This document shows positions 2,966-11,029 of a stretch of DNA of 64,000 nt, one piece after another (positions within the stretch are counted from its first letter, which is position 1; the number at the start of each line of letters is the position of its first letter). The stretch spans positions 1,031,289 through 1,095,288 of the forward strand of contig OY282446.1 in assembly GCA_958295975.1 (NCBI GenBank), in the 5' to 3' direction. Made by a program: the position numbers and the translations under genes. The notes under the pieces were generated by a model. It saw nothing but the letters and a program-made list of their open reading frames with translations. It was not told where the DNA came from and ran no database searches. Origin of the DNA: Tepidiformaceae bacterium. GTDB taxonomy: Bacteria > Chloroflexota > Dehalococcoidia > Tepidiformales > Tepidiformaceae.

Positions 2966-5395
2966 ATGGTCGCCAGCCGCATCCGCAGCATTCGAGCCAT
3001 CGTCGAGGAGCGCATCGCGGGCGATGCGGGATTGGATGCTGGCGTTGCGCGCCTCGTGCGCGCGGCCTTCGTCGGCCAGCTCGATGCGGCACTGGCGGAC
3101 GAGGCCGTCGAGTCGCCCTTCGACGCGCCGCCGCCACAGGAGGCCGAACCCGCCGGAGCCCACCTCGCCAACATCGCAGTCACGGGTTTTCGCGGCATTG
3201 GCCCTCGCGCCGACCTGCCCCTCATGCCGGGGCCGGGCCTGACACTAGTCGTCGGACGCAACGGCACAGGCAAGTCCAGCTTCGCCGAGGGCCTCGAAAT
3301 GGCTCTGACGGGCCGCAACTCGCGCTGGGATGACATGTCCAGCGCCTGGATGGAAGGCTGGCGCAACCTCCATCACGAGGGGCCAGTCTCGGTCGAGGCG
3401 CGCTTTGCCGTCGATGGCGTCGCGGGCGAGGCGCTGGTCTCCCTGCGGTGGCCGAATGCCGACTTCGACGACCCTGTGCGCGAGGGTCTCGACACGCTTG
3501 GTTGGGAGGACGCGATCACGAGCCACCGCCCCCTCCTTTCCCACAGCCAGCTGAGCAAGAGGCTGGAGGGAAAGCCCTCGGATCTTTTTAGCGCCATGGC
3601 CGTTGGTCTCGGCATTGAGGAGATCAGTGAAACGCGCGAGCGTCTCCGCCAAAAGCGTCTCCAAGCCGAGCGTATGCGACGGGACGCGGGGAAGGCCGCC
3701 AACGCACTCCGTTCTGACTTGGCAGCGTTGGTCGATGATCGCGCCAGCCGTTGTGCGAACGCGCTGGAGCGGGATCCTTGGGACCTAGAGGCTATTGAAG
3801 GCGTTCTCGCGGACGCGACCGGTGGGGAAGGCGATCAGGCTCTCGCCATACTGCACGCGCTGGCCACCGCCAATGCTCCCGCTTCTGGGACGATCGAGGA
3901 GGTGCGCGCACAACTTGTCAAAGCGCACGAACGGATGACCGCCATCGCCAGCAGCGATACGGCGAGGGCCGACCGCCTGTTGAAGATGCTCACGGAGGCG
4001 CTGGCCCTTCACGAGCACGACGGCGACCAGCCTTGTCCCGTCTGTGGCGAGGGGACTATCGACGCCGCCTGGGCAGGCGAGGCCCGGGAACGTCAGGCGC
4101 GGCTTCGGCGGGAGGCGCGTGAAGCCCGCGCGGCCCAAAAGGCGCGGGCGGATGCGCTCGACGCCGCGCGACAACTCTGCACGGCCACGCCTGACGCGCT
4201 TGGCCAAGCCGAGCGCGTCGGCATTGACGCCTCCACCGCCATCCATGCTTGGCGCGACTGGACGGAAGCGCCCGATGGCGAGCCGGACCTGCCCGAACTG
4301 GCGGAGCGGCTGGCCGAACGCGGAGCGGCGCTCCAAGAGGCGGTTGCGAACCTGCGCGCCAGCGCTCGCGACGAACTCGACCGCCTACAGGCTCTCTGGC
4401 AGCCCCTTCGGCAGCAGCTCGCGGAGTGGCTCCCGCAGGGCCGCGAGACACGGAGGGCAATGGAGAAGCTCCCCGGCATCCGCACCGCAGAGAACTGGGT
4501 GAAAGCCGTAGAAGAGGATGTGCGCGCCGAGCGCTTCCGGCCCGTCGCTGAACAGACCCGGCGCTTCTGGGAAATGATGCGACAGAGCAGCAGCGTCTCC
4601 CTCAAGAAAATCGCCTTGGTGGGCACGGCGAAGCAACAGCACCTCGACATTGCCGTTACGGTCGATGGCGAAGGGGGTGCCGCCCTCGGCGTGATGAGCC
4701 AGGGCGAACTGAACACGCTCTCGCTCAGCCTCTTCCTCGCCCGCGCCACACTGCCCGAAAGCCCCTTCCGCTTTCTCGTCATCGACGACCCCGTGCAGGC
4801 CATGGACCCGGCCAAGGTGGACGGCCTCGCCAGCGTTCTTGAAGAAGTCGCACTCGAACGGCAGGTCATCGTCTTCACCCATGACACACGCCTGCGAAAC
4901 ACCGTTCGTCAATTGCAGATCGACGCGCAGATCATCGAGGTGACGCGCAGCCTCAACTCCCACGTCACCGCCCAGCAGGTGGACGGCCCCGTGAGGCGCA
5001 ATCTTGACGATGCTCGCGCCATCCTCAGGGCTGAGCAAGTCCATGAGTCGACCAAAGCCCGCGTGATCCCTGTGTTCTGCCGGCAGTCGCTAGAGGCGGC
5101 GTGTATCGAAGGCATCTGGCAGAAGCGCGCGAGCGGGGGTATCGACCACGCGCAAACGGAAGAAGACATCCGTGAAGCCACGATGTTGACCGACAAACTG
5201 GGGCTGCTTCTCTTCGACGAGCCGGGGCGCGGCAGCGACGCTTTGGATGCCGTGAACCAAAGGTTCGGCAAGGCAGCGGCCGACGCAGTGACGGACTGCA
5301 ATCGCGGCGCGCACGGAGAAGCGCTTTCCACGCCTCCGAATACCTTGATCAACAGGACCAGGACCCTCACTGGCAAACTGCGGAAGATGCAATGA
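2966..5395 (+). CDS. RecF/Rad50-like AAA ATPase with a Zn-hook-like motif and C-terminal helical domain
   Basis: An 809-aa SMC/RecF-type ATPase. Walker A is GRNGTGKSS near residues 96-104. A long helical middle carries CPVC at about 357-360; only one CxxC is present, as in a Rad50 hook half. The signature is MSQGELNTLSLSLFLA (about 577-592), Walker B is FLVIDDPVQAMD (about 602-613), and an FTHD H-loop sits near 637. About 150 extra C-terminal residues contain RQSLEA (706-711) and NRGAHG (779-784). Start ATG follows the promoter at 2930-2957. The stop overlaps the next ATG by 4 bp. Role inferred: DNA-related ATPase of a defence or repair module. The exact family was not identified. Confidence 0.85.
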   Translation: MVASRIRSIRAIVEERIAGDAGLDAGVARLVRAAFVGQLDAALADEAVESPFDAPPPQEAEPAGAHLANIAVTGFRGIGPRADLPLMPGPGLTLVVGRNGTGKSSFAEGLEMALTGRNSRWDDMSSAWMEGWRNLHHEGPVSVEARFAVDGVAGEALVSLRWPNADFDDPVREGLDTLGWEDAITSHRPLLSHSQLSKRLEGKPSDLFSAMAVGLGIEEISETRERLRQKRLQAERMRRDAGKAANALRSDLAALVDDRASRCANALERDPWDLEAIEGVLADATGGEGDQALAILHALATANAPASGTIEEVRAQLVKAHERMTAIASSDTARADRLLKMLTEALALHEHDGDQPCPVCGEGTIDAAWAGEARERQARLRREAREARAAQKARADALDAARQLCTATPDALGQAERVGIDASTAIHAWRDWTEAPDGEPDLPELAERLAERGAALQEAVANLRASARDELDRLQALWQPLRQQLAEWLPQGRETRRAMEKLPGIRTAENWVKAVEEDVRAERFRPVAEQTRRFWEMMRQSSSVSLKKIALVGTAKQQHLDIAVTVDGEGGAALGVMSQGELNTLSLSLFLARATLPESPFRFLVIDDPVQAMDPAKVDGLASVLEEVALERQVIVFTHDTRLRNTVRQLQIDAQIIEVTRSLNSHVTAQQVDGPVRRNLDDARAILRAEQVHESTKARVIPVFCRQSLEAACIEGIWQKRASGGIDHAQTEEDIREATMLTDKLGLLLFDEPGRGSDALDAVNQRFGKAAADAVTDCNRGAHGEALSTPPNTLINRTRTLTGKLRKMQ

Positions 5396-5751
5396 CCTCA
5401 AGTGCTCTCGCCGAAGCCCGGCGTCTGCTGGAATACCCGCCCACGACGGACTCCGGGCTGTGGGAGCGCGCCGCCGTTCTGCTCAGCCGACAAGCGCTCG
5501 AAGCCTCGGTGGAGCGGTTCTGGGAACAGCGCTCCCCCGACCTGCAACGAGCAAACACGCGCGCCCAGCTGTTGTGCCTCAGCGAATTCATGGGCGGCGA
5601 CACCCCTGTGGCAGGTGACGCGACGCAGCTCTGGAACACGCTCTCCCGCGCCTGCCATTACGACGACGACTACCTTGCCCCCACTGCCGCCGAGGTCGCG
5701 GGGTGGCTGGAACGCGCGGAGCGCCTCTGCACCATCATCGACGGGCGCTGA
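5392..5751 (+). CDS. Small helical partner of the upstream ATPase, unknown function
   Basis: A 119-aa all-helical protein translationally coupled to the ATPase (ATGA overlap). Its core, SRQALEASVERFWEQR at residues 32-47 followed by LSRACH at 84-89, parallels the ATPase C-terminal segment (CRQSLEAACIEGIWQKR at 705-721 and CNRGAH at 778-783). Spacing and the R-x2-H motif are similar. The partner therefore looks like a free-standing copy of that domain. The pattern recalls HEPN-type helical domains, but the classical R-x4-6-H motif is not met, so this is only a suggestion. It ends 5 bp before the convergent coaBC stop. Confidence 0.75.
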   Translation: MTSSALAEARRLLEYPPTTDSGLWERAAVLLSRQALEASVERFWEQRSPDLQRANTRAQLLCLSEFMGGDTPVAGDATQLWNTLSRACHYDDDYLAPTAAEVAGWLERAERLCTIIDGR

Positions 5752-5756
5752 CGCGC

Positions 5757-6986
5757 TCAGGGGAGGCGCGCGGCCACGCGGTCGAGGATGGCGTGGGCCA
5801 CGGCGTACTTGCCCAGCAGGGGCAGCCGCTCGGCCTTGCCCTCGCGGTGGAAGATGGCCACCTCGTTCGTCTCCGTGCCGAAGCCGCTGCCCTCCGCCGT
5901 CACGTCGTTGGCCACGATCAGGTCGGCGCGCTTGGCCGCGAGCTTGGCCACGGCGTTGGCGCGCAGGTTCTCGGTTTCGGCGGCGAAGGCCACGCGCACG
6001 CCCCCGCCGGGCAGCGTGGCGATGATGTCGGGCGCGGGTTCCAGCGCCAGCGTGAGCCCCTCCGCGCCGGTCTCGGCCTTCCGGATCTTGCGGTCCGCCG
6101 CGTGGCGGGGACGGAAGTCGGCGGGGGCGGCGGCCATGAGCAGGGCGTCGCAGCGCTCGGTCAGCGGTTCGAGGGCGGCCAGCATGTCGGCCACGGTGGC
6201 GGCCTCGACGCGCTCCACGGCCCAGGGCGTGGGCAGGGCCGAGGGGGCGGTGACGAGGGAGACGCGCGCGCCGCGGTCGCGGGCGGCCTCGGCGATGGCG
6301 AAGCCCATGCGCCCGCTGGAGCGGTTGCCGACGAAGCGCACGGGGTCGAGCGGCTCGCGCGTGCCCCCGGCGGTGACGACCACGACGCGCCCGCGCAGGT
6401 CGCCGTCGCGCGCGCCGAGCACGGCGCGCACGGCCCCCACGATGGCGGGCGTTTCGGCGAGACGGCCGGGGCCGTGGCGTCCGCTGGCGAGACGGCCCTC
6501 CTCCGGCCCCACCAGCGTGGCGCCGCGCGCGCGCAGCGTCTCCACGTTGGCCGCCACGGCGGCGTTGGCCCACATCTGCGCGTCCATGGCGGGGGCGAGC
6601 ACGAGGGGGGCGGAGGTGGCCAGCGCCGTGAGGGCCACCATGTCGCCCGCGCCGCCGTGGGCGAGGCGCGCGAGGCAATCGGCCCCGGCGGGGGCGATCA
6701 CGAGCGCGTCGATGCGGCGCGCCACCTCCACGTGCGCCTCGGCCTCGTCCGCGGCGAACATGTCCACGAGGGGCGCGACGCCGGTGAGCGAGTGGAAGGT
6801 GAGGGGCGCGACGAAGCGCGTGGCCGCCGCCGTCATGAGCGTCTCCACGGCGGCCCCGGCCTGGCGCAGCTTGCTGGCGAGGTCGGCGGCCTTGTAGGCG
6901 GAGACGCCGCCGGTGACGCCGAGGGCCAGCCGCCGTCCCGCGAGGGGCGCCTCGCGGAAGGGGCCGGCGACGACCGGCTCAGGCAC
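5757..6986 (-). CDS. coaBC: Bifunctional phosphopantothenoylcysteine decarboxylase / phosphopantothenate-cysteine ligase
   Basis: Catalyses two successive steps from 4'-phosphopantothenate to 4'-phosphopantetheine. At 409 aa it has the normal fused length. The N-terminal CoaC flavoprotein half has GVTGGVSAYKA (about 23-33), a catalytic His in AHVEVA, and APAMDAQMW, where many homologues have PAMN. The C-terminal CoaB half has VTAGGTREPLDPVRF and NRSSGRMG near residue 220. The start lies inside the 3' end of coaX (8-bp overlap), giving a coaX-coaBC operon for CoA synthesis. Confidence 0.96.
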   Translation of the reverse strand: MPEPVVAGPFREAPLAGRRLALGVTGGVSAYKAADLASKLRQAGAAVETLMTAAATRFVAPLTFHSLTGVAPLVDMFAADEAEAHVEVARRIDALVIAPAGADCLARLAHGGAGDMVALTALATSAPLVLAPAMDAQMWANAAVAANVETLRARGATLVGPEEGRLASGRHGPGRLAETPAIVGAVRAVLGARDGDLRGRVVVVTAGGTREPLDPVRFVGNRSSGRMGFAIAEAARDRGARVSLVTAPSALPTPWAVERVEAATVADMLAALEPLTERCDALLMAAAPADFRPRHAADRKIRKAETGAEGLTLALEPAPDIIATLPGGGVRVAFAAETENLRANAVAKLAAKRADLIVANDVTAEGSGFGTETNEVAIFHREGKAERLPLLGKYAVAHAILDRVAARLP

Positions 6987-7746
6987 GGTTGCGCTCGTGG
7001 ATGAAGCGCAGGCCCTGGAGCGTGAGGTCGCGGTCGACCACGTCGATCACGTCCGTCTCCGCCGCGATTTCGCTGGCCCAGCCGCCCGTGCCGATGACGG
7101 TGGCGCCGCCGCCGAGCTCCTCCTGGAAGCGCGCCACCATGCCCTCCACCAGCCCCACGTAGCCGAGCAGGATGCCGGACTGGAGGGCGTGCGTGGTGTT
7201 GCGCCCGATGGCGGCGGGGGGGCGCTCGATCTGCACGCGCGAGAGCATGGCGGCGCGGCTGAAGAGCGTCTCGCTGGCGATGCCGATGCCGGGCGCGATG
7301 GCCCCGCCGAGGTAGTCGCCCTCGGCGTTGACGGCGTCGAACACGGTGGCCGTGCCGAAATCGACGACGATGGCGGGCGGGCCGTAGAGCTCGACGGCGG
7401 CCACGGCGTCGATGATGCGGTCGGCCCCCACCTGGCGGGGGTTGTCGTAGAGGATGCGGATGCCGGAGCGCACGCCCTGGCCGACCACCATCGGCTCCGC
7501 GCCGAAGTAGCGCGCGGCCACGCGCTGGAAGGCGGGCAGCAGGGGCGGCACGCCGCAGCCGATGATGCAGTCCCCGACGTCGTCCGCCGTGAGGTCGCTG
7601 GTGGCCAGCAGGTTGAGCATGAGCACGCCGTACTCGTCGGCGGAGCGCTCGGCCTCCACGCCCACGCGCCAGGTGGCGGCCAGCTCCTCCCCCGCGAAGA
7701 GGCCCATGTGGATGGAAGTGTTGCCGATGTCGAGCGCGAGCAGCAT
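6979..7746 (-). CDS. coaX: Type III pantothenate kinase
   Basis: Phosphorylates pantothenate, the first step of CoA synthesis. It is 255 aa, of the acetate kinase/Hsp70 superfamily. The phosphate loop DIGNTSIHMG starts at residue 6. GADRIIDAVAA and the catalytic VVDFGTATVFD segment lie near residues 105-135. Type III kinases are typically ATP-feedback-insensitive and need a monovalent cation. It is first in an operon with coaBC and divergent from proA; the 71-bp gap holds both promoters. Confidence 0.96.
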   Translation of the reverse strand: MLLALDIGNTSIHMGLFAGEELAATWRVGVEAERSADEYGVLMLNLLATSDLTADDVGDCIIGCGVPPLLPAFQRVAARYFGAEPMVVGQGVRSGIRILYDNPRQVGADRIIDAVAAVELYGPPAIVVDFGTATVFDAVNAEGDYLGGAIAPGIGIASETLFSRAAMLSRVQIERPPAAIGRNTTHALQSGILLGYVGLVEGMVARFQEELGGGATVIGTGGWASEIAAETDVIDVVDRDLTLQGLRFIHERNRA

Positions 7747-7817
7747 GGCGCGGCGGCCCCTAGCGTAGGCGCGCGGGCGGTCGCGCGTAAAGCGGGCGCG
7801 GGCCGTAGACTGGACGC

Positions 7818-9101
7818 ATGACCGCCACCATGCCGCTCCTGCGCGAGCGGGCGGAGTCCGCCCGCGCCGCCGCCCGCGGCCTCGCCCTCGCCTCCACGGC
7901 GGAGAAGAACGCGGCCCTCGAACGCATCGCCGCGCTGCTGCCGCGGCGCGAGGACGCGATTCTGGCGGCCAACGAGGCGGACCTCGCCGCCGGGCGCGCG
8001 GCGGGGCTGCCCGACTTCTTCCTCGAACGGCTCACGCTCACCCCGGCGCGCATCCGCGGCATGGCCGCCGACGTCCGCCACGTGGCCGCGCTGCCCGACC
8101 CCGTGGGCGCGACCTTCGACGAGCGCACGCTGGCCAACGGGCTGCGGCTGGCGCGGCGGCGCGTGCCCCTCGGCGTCATCGCCTGCATCTACGAATCGCG
8201 CCCCAACGTGACCATCGACGTGGCCGCCCTCTGCCTGAAGAGCGGGAACGCGGTCATCCTGCGCGGGGGCACGGAGGCGCGGCGGAGCAACGCCGCCCTC
8301 GCCGACCTGCTGGCGGAGGCGCTGGCGGATTCGGCGCTGCCCGACGGGGCCGTGCAGAGCGTGCGCGATCCGGACCGCGCCCACATCGACGAGCTGCTGC
8401 GCATGCACGACCTCATCGACCTCATGATCCCGCGCGGGGGCGCGGGCCTCATCGACCACGTGCGGGCCACCGCCACCATGCCCGTGGTGGCCCACGGCGC
8501 CGCCGTCTCCCACACCTGCGTGGACGCCGCCGCCGACCCGGCCATGGCCCTCGAGGTGGCGGACAACGCCAAGACGCGCCGCTACAGCATCTGCAACGCG
8601 CTGGACACGCTGCTCGTGCACGAGGCCGTCGCGCCGCGCTTCCTGACGATGCTGGCGGAGCGCTGGGCGGGGAAGGTGACGCTGCTGGGCGACGGGCCCG
8701 CGCTCGACCTGCTGGCGCGGCTGGACACGCCCCCCGCGCTCGCCGTCGAGCCCGCGCGCGAGGGCGACTGGGACCGGGAGCATCTGGCCCTGCGCGCGGG
8801 CGTGCGCGTGGTGGCCTCGCTCGACGAGGCGCTGGCGCACATCGCGGCCCACGGCAGCGGCCACAGCGAGGCCATCGTCACCGGCGACGAGGCCGCCGCC
8901 GCGCGCTTCACCGCCGAGGTGGACGCCGCCTGCGTCTACGTGAACGCCAGCACGCAGTTCACGGACGGCGCGCAGTTCGGGCTGGGCGCGGAGATCGGCA
9001 TCTCCACGCAGAAGATGCACGCCCGCGGGCCCATGGGCCTGGAGGAACTCACCAGCTACAAGTGGACCATCCACGGCGACGGACAGGTGCGCCCCGCATG
9101 A
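7818..9101 (+). CDS. proA: Glutamate-5-semialdehyde dehydrogenase (gamma-glutamyl phosphate reductase)
   Basis: NADPH-dependent reduction of gamma-glutamyl phosphate in proline synthesis. The 427 aa match the family length. The catalytic Cys is C259 in the YSICNALDTLLVH context. The NAVILRGGTEA substrate/cofactor loop lies near residue 140, and STQFTDGAQFGLGAEIGIST near 380. Start: a TAGACT -10 box at 7806-7811 ends 6 bp before the ATG, so the mRNA is probably leaderless. No proB is visible nearby. Confidence 0.96.
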   Translation: MTATMPLLRERAESARAAARGLALASTAEKNAALERIAALLPRREDAILAANEADLAAGRAAGLPDFFLERLTLTPARIRGMAADVRHVAALPDPVGATFDERTLANGLRLARRRVPLGVIACIYESRPNVTIDVAALCLKSGNAVILRGGTEARRSNAALADLLAEALADSALPDGAVQSVRDPDRAHIDELLRMHDLIDLMIPRGGAGLIDHVRATATMPVVAHGAAVSHTCVDAAADPAMALEVADNAKTRRYSICNALDTLLVHEAVAPRFLTMLAERWAGKVTLLGDGPALDLLARLDTPPALAVEPAREGDWDREHLALRAGVRVVASLDEALAHIAAHGSGHSEAIVTGDEAAAARFTAEVDAACVYVNASTQFTDGAQFGLGAEIGISTQKMHARGPMGLEELTSYKWTIHGDGQVRPA

Positions 9102-9117
9102 GCGGGCGGAGGGACGC

Positions 9118-9435
9118 ATGATCAACTTCGAGCGCGAGGTGCGCACGCCTCATTCCGAGAGCTACACCGTGCTGGAGGACGGCGAGATCGTCGGGCGCGT
9201 GGACCTCCACATCCGCGCCCCCAACGTCTACGCCACCCTCTGCACGACGCCGGACGCGGACGACGACCGCATCCGCGAGCTGATGGACGCCATCGACGAG
9301 CAGCTGGCCATGACGGCGGACCCCTACCGCGAGGATTTCGTGGTGACGGTGTGGAAGGGCGTGCCCGCGGGCGTCTACGGCGACGCCGACGCGGACGGGG
9401 AGGCGATCAGCCTGGGCGAGGTCGCCGGGGAGTAG
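9118..9435 (+). CDS. Conserved hypothetical protein
   Basis: A 105-aa acidic protein 16 bp downstream of proA, possibly in the same transcript. It has a compact beta-rich start (TYTVLEDGEIVGRVDLH-like strands), then a helix around IRELMDAIDEQLAMTAD and a final strand EDFVVTVWKG. No signal peptide or membrane segment. I recall similar small proteins in Chloroflexota genomes, but no function is assigned. The start ATG is preceded by GGAGGGACGC, a plausible ribosome binding site. Confidence 0.75.
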   Translation: MINFEREVRTPHSESYTVLEDGEIVGRVDLHIRAPNVYATLCTTPDADDDRIRELMDAIDEQLAMTADPYREDFVVTVWKGVPAGVYGDADADGEAISLGEVAGE

Positions 9436-9464
9436 GGCTGCGTCGCCGACGGGCATGGGGTGGG

Positions 9465-9542
9465 GGCGAACGCGGGGCGAATGCGGGATTCGCGGGGGCG
9501 TTTGCACCCGTACTGGCAGTCGCCGCCCCTGTACTAGCACTT
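9465..9542. repeat. Direct repeat copy 1 (78 bp) with phased GGCGAA pair and promoter-like end
   Basis: This copy matches 9649-9726 over the same length (offset exactly 184 bp) with some substitutions. It starts with two GGCGAA half-sites 11 bp apart (9465-9470, 9476-9481) and ATTCGC at 9488-9493, which pairs with GCGAAT. It ends with TGTACT (9530-9535), a weak -10. An ATG at 9546 opens a 37-codon frame that ends at 9659; I do not consider that a proven gene. Confidence 0.7.
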
Positions 9543-9648
9543 CTCATGTCCGCAGGCTGGAATGCTATGCGGGGCCGCATCTTCCGCGTCCCGCCCGACG
9601 CCTCCTGGCATTCGCGGCGAAAGTCGATGGCCCAATCCGTGAGGGCGG

Positions 9649-9726
9649 GGCGAACGTAGGGCGAACGCGGGATTCGCGGGGGCGTTTGCGCTTGCACTGG
9701 CAGTCGATGCCCCTATACTAGCACTT
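9649..9726. repeat. Direct repeat copy 2 (78 bp) carrying the promoter of the AAA ATPase
   Basis: Second copy of the 78-bp unit. GGCGAA half-sites lie at 9649-9654 and 9660-9665, again 11 bp apart. ATTCGC is at 9672-9677. A good promoter is TTGCAC (9692-9697), 16-bp spacer, TATACT (9714-9719). A third GGCGAA pair with the same 11-bp spacing covers the start of the gene (9734-9739, 9745-9750). One helical turn between half-sites suggests cooperative protein binding on one DNA face. Confidence 0.7.
9692..9719 (+). promoter_or_regulatory. Promoter of the orphan AAA ATPase
   Basis: TTGCAC, 16-bp spacer, TATACT. Predicted transcription start is near 9726. That is at the in-frame TTG (9725) or 5 bp before the ATG (9731), so a leaderless or near-leaderless mRNA is expected. 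Confidence 0.6.
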
Positions 9727-9730
9727 GCGG

Positions 9731-11029
9731 ATGGGCGAACAGCGGGCGAACGATGTGTTGACGCAGGCGGACGCGGTGCGCGCCCGGGTTGATCTCGGGC
9801 AAGTCTTCAACCCGTCCGGGCCGGTGCGGCACCGCGAACTCCTGCAGGGCAGGGTGGAAGAGATCGCCCGCGTCCTCTCGGCCGTGAGCCAGCCGGGGCA
9901 GCACGTGATCCTGTTCGGCGAGCGGGGCGTGGGGAAGACCTCGCTCGCCAGCCTCACGCATGAGTTCTGGCTGGACTTCGCGCGGGACTCCGCCGGGATC
10001 ATTCCGCTCCGCTACAACTGCGAGCCCTCGGATACCTTCGGGACGATCTGGGCGCACATCGCCGAACTGCTCACGGACGAGTACGCCAAGCGCAATCAGC
10101 CCCTGCCAGCCGGAGAGGCGTGGCTCGATCTCCATGCGGAGATCACCCACGAGGCCGCATCCGCCCACTCAGTGCGCCGGTTCCTCGATCTCACGAACGA
10201 GACGAACATCATCGTGATCGACGAATTCGATCAGGTCGACGACGAGGACACGGTCCAGCAGTTCGCAAGCCTCATCAAGGCGCTCTCCGACCATCTCGCA
10301 CCTTCGACGCTGATCCTCGTGGGCGTGGCCGATACCGTGGACGATCTCATCGAAGACCATGCTTCAATCGACCGCGCCACGATCCAGGTGTCCCTGCCGA
10401 GGATGTCGAAGGTGGAATCGCGGAGCATCATCGAAAACGCCTATGCCCAGATTGGTCTTTCCACCACTCCCGACCTCTACGACCTGATGGCCGGGCTCGC
10501 TCAGGGCTTGCCGCACTACGCGCACCGCATGGGACAGGAGGCGGGGTTCGCAGCGGTCGAACGCGAGAGCATCCTCATCGATCAGCAGGATGTCGACCGG
10601 GCAGTGGCAATGGCAATCGACCACACGCAGGAGAGCATCCGCATGTCGTACCGCCTGGCTACGACAAGCCCGCGCAAGGACGCCCTTTTCGACCGGGTGC
10701 TTCTCGCATGTGCGCTCGCGCGGAGCGATGAGCTGGGGTACTTCGCTCCCTCCGACATCCGCAAGCCGCTGGAGCGCATCACCGGCAAAGACTACGACTA
10801 CCCGCAGTTCGCCAGACACCTCAAGCAGTTTGTCTCCCTCCGGCGAGGCGAGGTGTTCCAGGTCTCGGGGGAAAGCCGCCGAAAACGCTACCGGTTCGCC
10901 AATCCCCTGCTCAGGCCCTACGCCGTCCTGCGCGGGATTAACGAGGGGGTCATCAGCGCGGACACGGTCAGCGAGTTCGATCCGGAGGCGGAGACGTCCG
11001 CAGACGACGAGCAGTCGCGGCTGCCGTAG
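9731..11029 (+). CDS. Orphan AAA ATPase (Orc1/Cdc6- or STAND-like) with C-terminal winged-helix region
   Basis: 432 aa. Walker A is GERGVGKTS (residues 63-71), Walker B is IIVIDEFD (about 160-166, acidic D164-E165), and a sensor-1-like LILVGVAD lies near 196. A lid region follows, then about 120 C-terminal residues with helices and a basic wing (GESRRKRYRFANPLLRPY). The layout resembles Cdc6-type or STAND ATPases, and the substrate is unknown. Start: an in-frame TTG at 9725 is possible, but the ATG at 9731 is preferred. Codon use is less GC-biased than in the neighbours. It stands alone between proA and the glycosylase with its own repeats, which suggests an acquired gene. Confidence 0.8.
   Translation: MGEQRANDVLTQADAVRARVDLGQVFNPSGPVRHRELLQGRVEEIARVLSAVSQPGQHVILFGERGVGKTSLASLTHEFWLDFARDSAGIIPLRYNCEPSDTFGTIWAHIAELLTDEYAKRNQPLPAGEAWLDLHAEITHEAASAHSVRRFLDLTNETNIIVIDEFDQVDDEDTVQQFASLIKALSDHLAPSTLILVGVADTVDDLIEDHASIDRATIQVSLPRMSKVESRSIIENAYAQIGLSTTPDLYDLMAGLAQGLPHYAHRMGQEAGFAAVERESILIDQQDVDRAVAMAIDHTQESIRMSYRLATTSPRKDALFDRVLLACALARSDELGYFAPSDIRKPLERITGKDYDYPQFARHLKQFVSLRRGEVFQVSGESRRKRYRFANPLLRPYAVLRGINEGVISADTVSEFDPEAETSADDEQSRLP

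Follow-up and report, generated by a model that had tools for sequence, protein, structure and literature searches.

HEPN enzymes usually pair identical domains. HEPN RNases act at the dimer interface (PMC10702470), and the HEPN dimer of a retron cuts tRNA in abortive infection (PMC13405049). The RNase domains of the anticodon nucleases (ACNases) RloC and PrrC are likewise HEPN domains (PMC3710099). Mutation has confirmed the RloC triad, R-X3-E-X36-52-H, and that of PrrC is R320-E324-H356 (PMC2610378). The ACNase activity of RloC requires its own ATPase and linear DNA (PMC3874168).

The locus described here combines a Rad50/SMC-type ATPase with two HEPN-type domains, one of which probably forms the end of the ATPase while the other is a separate, small protein. 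It lies in a window of 64,000 nucleotides (the whole stretch of DNA that was analyzed) from a host genome that is a single 2.4-Mb contig. Gene 1 (positions 2966 to 5395, plus strand) encodes an 809-aa Rad50/SMC-like ABC ATPase (AAA_23 and SMC_N matches) with a C-terminal HEPN-like domain, and gene 2 (5392 to 5751, plus strand) encodes a 119-aa stand-alone partner with a HEPN fold (AlphaFold2 model and structure matches). An earlier note on this DNA had placed the pair between nuoN and coaBC, with a 4-bp overlap of the two genes. Both ORFs are present, with ATGA as the overlap; the last base of nuoN is 2899, and coaBC, recognized by Pfam DFP and Flavoprotein matches, lies on the minus strand with its end at 5757. 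The note had also given the module its own near-leaderless promoter, and a sigma-70 scan found none. The GC content of the module stretch is ∼67%, compared to 70 to 79% in most flanking kilobases. Rough gene calls at homologous loci revealed no third conserved gene adjoining the pair, and no R-M genes lie beside it in the 64-kb window.

The AlphaFold2 model of the ATPase (pLDDT 90.4) has a Rad50/SMC head and a long coiled coil. Its structural matches are Rad50/SMC heads (Z up to 27), which cover residues 64 to 680; the RecF/Rad50-like assignment made previously is thus borne out as Rad50/SMC-like. Each of the expected motifs is encoded on the plus strand and was compared across 76 homologues. 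In Walker A (residues 97 to 105, GRNGTGKSS; 3254 to 3280), G97, N99, G100, K103, S104, and S105 are invariant. The same holds, in 76 of 76, for S578, Q579, G580, and E581 of the ABC signature (M577-S-Q-G-E581; 4694 to 4708), for I606, D607, D608, and P609 of the Walker B region (V605-I-D-D-P609; 4778 to 4792), and for H-loop His639 (4880 to 4882). Both cysteines of a zinc-hook motif, C357-P-V-C360 (4034 to 4045), which lies in the coiled-coil insert, are also present in all 76.

The partner is modeled with high confidence (pLDDT 93.7) as a HEPN helical bundle. The solved structures that best match the model are mostly HEPN proteins, including 2hsb (AF0298; Z 13.9, rmsd 2.0, 108 residues), and LsoA, Csm6', and HEPN toxins are among the top matches. 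Helical bundles can reach high structural scores by chance; here, one superfamily, HEPN, dominates the match list. On the basis of the model, the fold of the partner is HEPN. No convincing family was found for the partner alone in Pfam, PADLOC, NCBIfam, or PHROGs, nor for 67 to 70 partner members in Pfam, PADLOC, or NCBIfam, and the partner had no match among PDB sequences. The canonical HEPN RNase motif, Rx4-6H, is absent from the partner, which has R86-x2-H89 with a nonconserved R86. Instead, it carries R33-x3-E37 (5488 to 5502, plus strand) followed by His89 (5656 to 5658, plus strand).

Next, the partner was compared with the C terminus of the ATPase, which the earlier note had said it resembles. 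The C-terminal 134 residues of the ATPase (676 to 809; 4991 to 5392, plus strand) form a helical domain in the AlphaFold2 model, and helices 675 to 688, 694 to 724, 769 to 781, and 791 to 808 mirror the layout of the partner. Two-sequence BLASTP of partner against ATPase C terminus was not significant (E 0.055). As family profiles, the two can be aligned along 116 columns (hhalign E 3.5e-5, probability 72%); R33 falls opposite R706 and E37 opposite E710, the His regions correspond, and a longer ATPase profile still placed the partner on the C-terminal domain. The claimed resemblance is therefore upheld by the profile match and by the shared predicted helix layout. The C-terminal domain of the ATPase is a divergent relative of the partner and, given this homology and the same helix layout, is probably also a HEPN domain. 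Of the motifs said to be shared, family-wide conservation is limited to R-x-[A/S]-L-E and the His; it does not extend to W-x2-R or to the Arg of R-x2-H.

Conservation across 162 pairs points to the same three positions in both proteins. In the partner, R33, E37, and H89 are retained in 161, 161, and 150 pairs; in the ATPase, R706 and E710 (R706-x3-E710; 5081 to 5095, plus strand) and H783 (5312 to 5314, plus strand) are retained in 162, 161, and 149 pairs. These residues are among the most conserved of the two proteins. The spacing from Glu to His is 51 residues in the partner and 72 in the ATPase (E710 to H783). As judged from the alignments, the R-x3-E...H set of both proteins resembles the catalytic triad of the RloC/PrrC anticodon nucleases.

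This resemblance raises the question of whether the ATPase is simply a divergent RloC orthologue, with the partner a duplicated ACNase domain of no independent importance. The domain order, the zinc hook, and the R-x3-E...H arrangement are those of RloC, and yet we regard orthology as highly improbable. The Pfam AAA_13 score of the ATPase is 22.2 bits, below the cutoff of 36, its Glu-to-His spacing falls outside 36 to 52, the partner is obligate rather than part of a single-gene system, and hhalign of both HEPN-type domains against ten RloC-type C termini gave a probability of 10% or less, which is not significant. Profile scores suggested that the ATPases of this family are separate from RloC.

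The distribution of the two genes was then analyzed. In the first set of loci, the partner directly follows the ATPase in 82 of 84, and at the 2 exceptions the contig ends 34 and 47 bp past the ATPase. Among 170 loci, which represent several phyla as well as plasmids, 164 contain the pair; the exceptions are at contig ends or in truncated or degraded copies. The partner profile matched 12 of 400 Chloroflexota genomes, and a separate ATPase profile matched the same 12, so that neither gene occurred alone. Among 397 genomes from one actinobacterial order, 73 encode the partner. Scanning genome contigs yielded 464 relatives; the best 80 loci belong to Chloroflexota, Actinomycetota, Acidobacteriota, Spirochaetota, Dormibacterota, and others. 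Both genes occur on three plasmids; no full relative was found in the phages and viral contigs searched. The divergence of the partner correlates with that of the ATPase (r 0.82, 124 non-redundant pairs). The ATPase and its partner are a strictly paired module, and the co-occurrence that the earlier note had left to be checked is conserved and obligate elsewhere.

Several individual loci depart from the common form. About 20 (L227 to L249) encode a partner of a second subfamily, which is more divergent (roughly 70 to 94 bits) but keeps R33, E37, and H89 and a matching ATPase. At a Streptomyces anthocyanicus locus (L004, 11803 to 14264), a frameshift splits the ATPase gene inside the C-terminal domain and the partner is intact. 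The module is apparently decaying at L217 (2633 to 3001), where the partner is kept and the ATPase is reduced to a C-terminal remnant, and at L225, where the partner has R33C.

The small size of the partner, the overlap of its gene with that of the ATPase, and its constant presence could also reflect a toxin-antitoxin arrangement, in which one HEPN domain is the RNase, the other is a neutralizing look-alike, and the ATPase lifts the block upon stress or infection. Many HEPN toxins have a cognate partner (PMC3710099). In a pure antitoxin, however, R-x3-E and His should have been lost, and both domains keep these residues almost equally. In addition, degraded remnants retain the partner without an intact ATPase, and the partner alone is therefore not obviously toxic. 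We consider a toxin-antitoxin arrangement unlikely.

The partner is absent from all 98 relatives (0/98), and the ATPase is absent from every same-genus genome searched. On the left, where nuoN meets the module (2900 to 2965), homology to the nuoN of relatives ends at 2895 to 2899, and in those relatives the next homologous block begins after ∼14 bp. That block matches the window from 9424 down to 5764 (small gene, proA, coaX, and coaBC). On the right, where the module meets coaBC (5752 to 5763), homology to relatives resumes at 5764. The coaBC-coaX-proA-small gene block (5764 to 9424) is thus inverted relative to nuoN compared to same-genus relatives, and the module stands at one breakpoint, between nuoN and the coaBC end of the inverted block. 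Because relatives lack the module and the block beside it is inverted, the insertion is specific to the host lineage and lies at an inversion breakpoint, in agreement with the insertion between housekeeping operons that had been read from the window alone.

Adjacent to the opposite end of the inverted block, two 87-nt direct repeats (9456 to 9542 and 9640 to 9726; 85% identity) and an incomplete third copy at 9733 lie just upstream of an AAA gene (9725 to 11029). This is a low-GC (63%) nSTAND1/AAA_16 ATPase gene, and a homologue directly adjoins coaBC (L121) in the same-genus genome G001. The nuoN/coaBC site may for that reason be a small insertion hot spot. A second nuoN/nuoM/nuoL-like gene set is present elsewhere in the host genome (G000:C1:2383269-2387906).

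To place the module in its genomic context, genes around the homologous loci were compared with PADLOC models. The 124 genes nearest the pair match 97 models, and 121 more distant genes (up to 10 kb; 3 of them near-neighbor genes added as fillers) match 88, compared to 5 models for 120 genes taken from random regions in actinobacterial genomes that carry the module; these figures count models, not genes, and the taxonomic mix of the random regions is narrower than that of the loci. The contrast is nevertheless large, and defense genes surround the pair much more frequently than they do random regions. Near and more distant neighbors did not differ in defense content (97 versus 88 models); therefore, the signal is regional and not specific to the adjacent gene. 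Matches around the loci include type I, III, and IV restriction genes and a BREX helicase, and the Streptomyces plasmid pairs adjoin type I R-M genes. PADLOC, Pfam, NCBIfam, and PHROGs recognized no named system beyond the generic ATPase core, and the pair is described nowhere in the open-access literature searched. The earlier view of a defense or repair system of no named type therefore holds as far as naming is concerned; since the shared domain is probably of the HEPN type, RNase action like that of RloC and PrrC is likelier than repair.

A lineage-restricted change bears on the roles of the two histidines. In 11 Lentzea-clade genomes, His89 of the partner is replaced by Arg and His783 of the ATPase is replaced by Asp, together. 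Both genes are under purifying selection in this clade (median dN/dS of 0.18 for the partner and 0.14 for the ATPase), and the partner keeps two adjacent histidines. The coupled change is only suggestive of contact between the partner and the C-terminal domain of the ATPase, because it represents a single evolutionary event; replacement of a His-His contact by an Arg-Asp contact would fit. Either His89 and His783 are not strictly required in the Lentzea clade, or a neighboring His of the partner may substitute, or the two residues may have a structural role.

Loss of both histidines under purifying selection is also what a Rad50-type complex for DNA-end processing or repair might show, with HEPN-like domains that are structural or nucleic acid binding and not RNases. 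The Rad50-like head and the zinc hook are in keeping with such a complex, and there are HEPN domains that bind but have no activity (PMC3710099). The near-invariance of R-x3-E in both proteins argues against it, as do the lack of an accompanying DNA nuclease subunit and a patchy, mobile, defense-associated distribution unlike that of housekeeping repair. A repair function thus appears improbable.

Taken together, we consider it reasonably probable that the pair is a mobile two-gene defense module that functions as RloC does, but in two parts, with the ATPase controlling a heterotypic HEPN RNase. By analogy with RloC, HEPN dimer RNases, and the retron HEPN, the Rad50/SMC-type ATPase, with its coiled coil and zinc hook, would sense DNA ends or phage DNA, and ATP binding or hydrolysis would be coupled to its C-terminal domain. 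That domain and the partner HEPN would dimerize with each other, and the R-x3-E...H residues of this heterodimer would form a metal-independent RNase site. The triggered sensor would open this site, RNA (most likely tRNA) would be cut, translation would be halted, and phage growth would be stopped. The module is probably an unnamed anti-phage system, with nuclease activity, an RNA target, and anti-phage function all inferred. The low profile probability with RloC C termini, the missing Rx4-6H motif, and the Lentzea His loss were counted against the two-part RloC model. More tentatively, the module may be a split, "two-key" anticodon nuclease, in which one HEPN domain is fixed to the sensor, the other is free, and the toxic site exists only when both meet; in the Lentzea clade, the His pair would have become Arg-Asp in a module still under selection.

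If the proposed RNase model is true, a common, unnamed two-gene anti-phage system would be added, given its frequency in the actinobacterial order and in Chloroflexota. It would also offer a test of the wiring between a DNA-break sensor and an RNase. With an obligate pair of unlike HEPN domains, each half-site would be separately mutable, and an RloC-type activation mechanism would become accessible.

Among described systems, stand-alone HEPN proteins (AF0298, LsoA, Csm6, and HEPN toxins) share the fold of the partner but are not encoded with a Rad50-like ATPase that ends in a related domain. PARIS also joins an ABC ATPase sensor (AriA) and a small, tRNA-cutting RNase effector (AriB) in two genes (PMC12839542); its effector is Toprim, not HEPN, and its ATPase is of the OLD type. 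Lamassu (the SMC protein LmuB, the effector LmuA, and LmuC) has an SMC-like core, and LmuB is the best PADLOC match of the ATPase (E 6.7e-21), but this match is confined to the head and coil, and Lamassu is excluded by the partner (0 of 67 partners match PADLOC Lmu models). PrrC combines an ABC ATPase with a HEPN RNase domain and resides within a type I R-M operon, whereas R-M genes adjoin only some module loci; PrrC has neither a zinc hook nor a HEPN partner. RloC, which excises the wobble nucleotide of tRNA, is the most similar, with a Rad50-like head, a CXXC zinc hook in a coiled-coil insert, and, in the same order, a HEPN-type domain at the C terminus that carries R-x3-E followed by a His; the ATPase has the first two features and probably the third. 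In RloC, Glu and His are 36 to 52 residues apart on the same chain, whereas in the module the ATPase spacing lies outside this range and that of the separate partner lies inside it. RloC is one gene without a partner; the module is two genes, and its partner is obligate.
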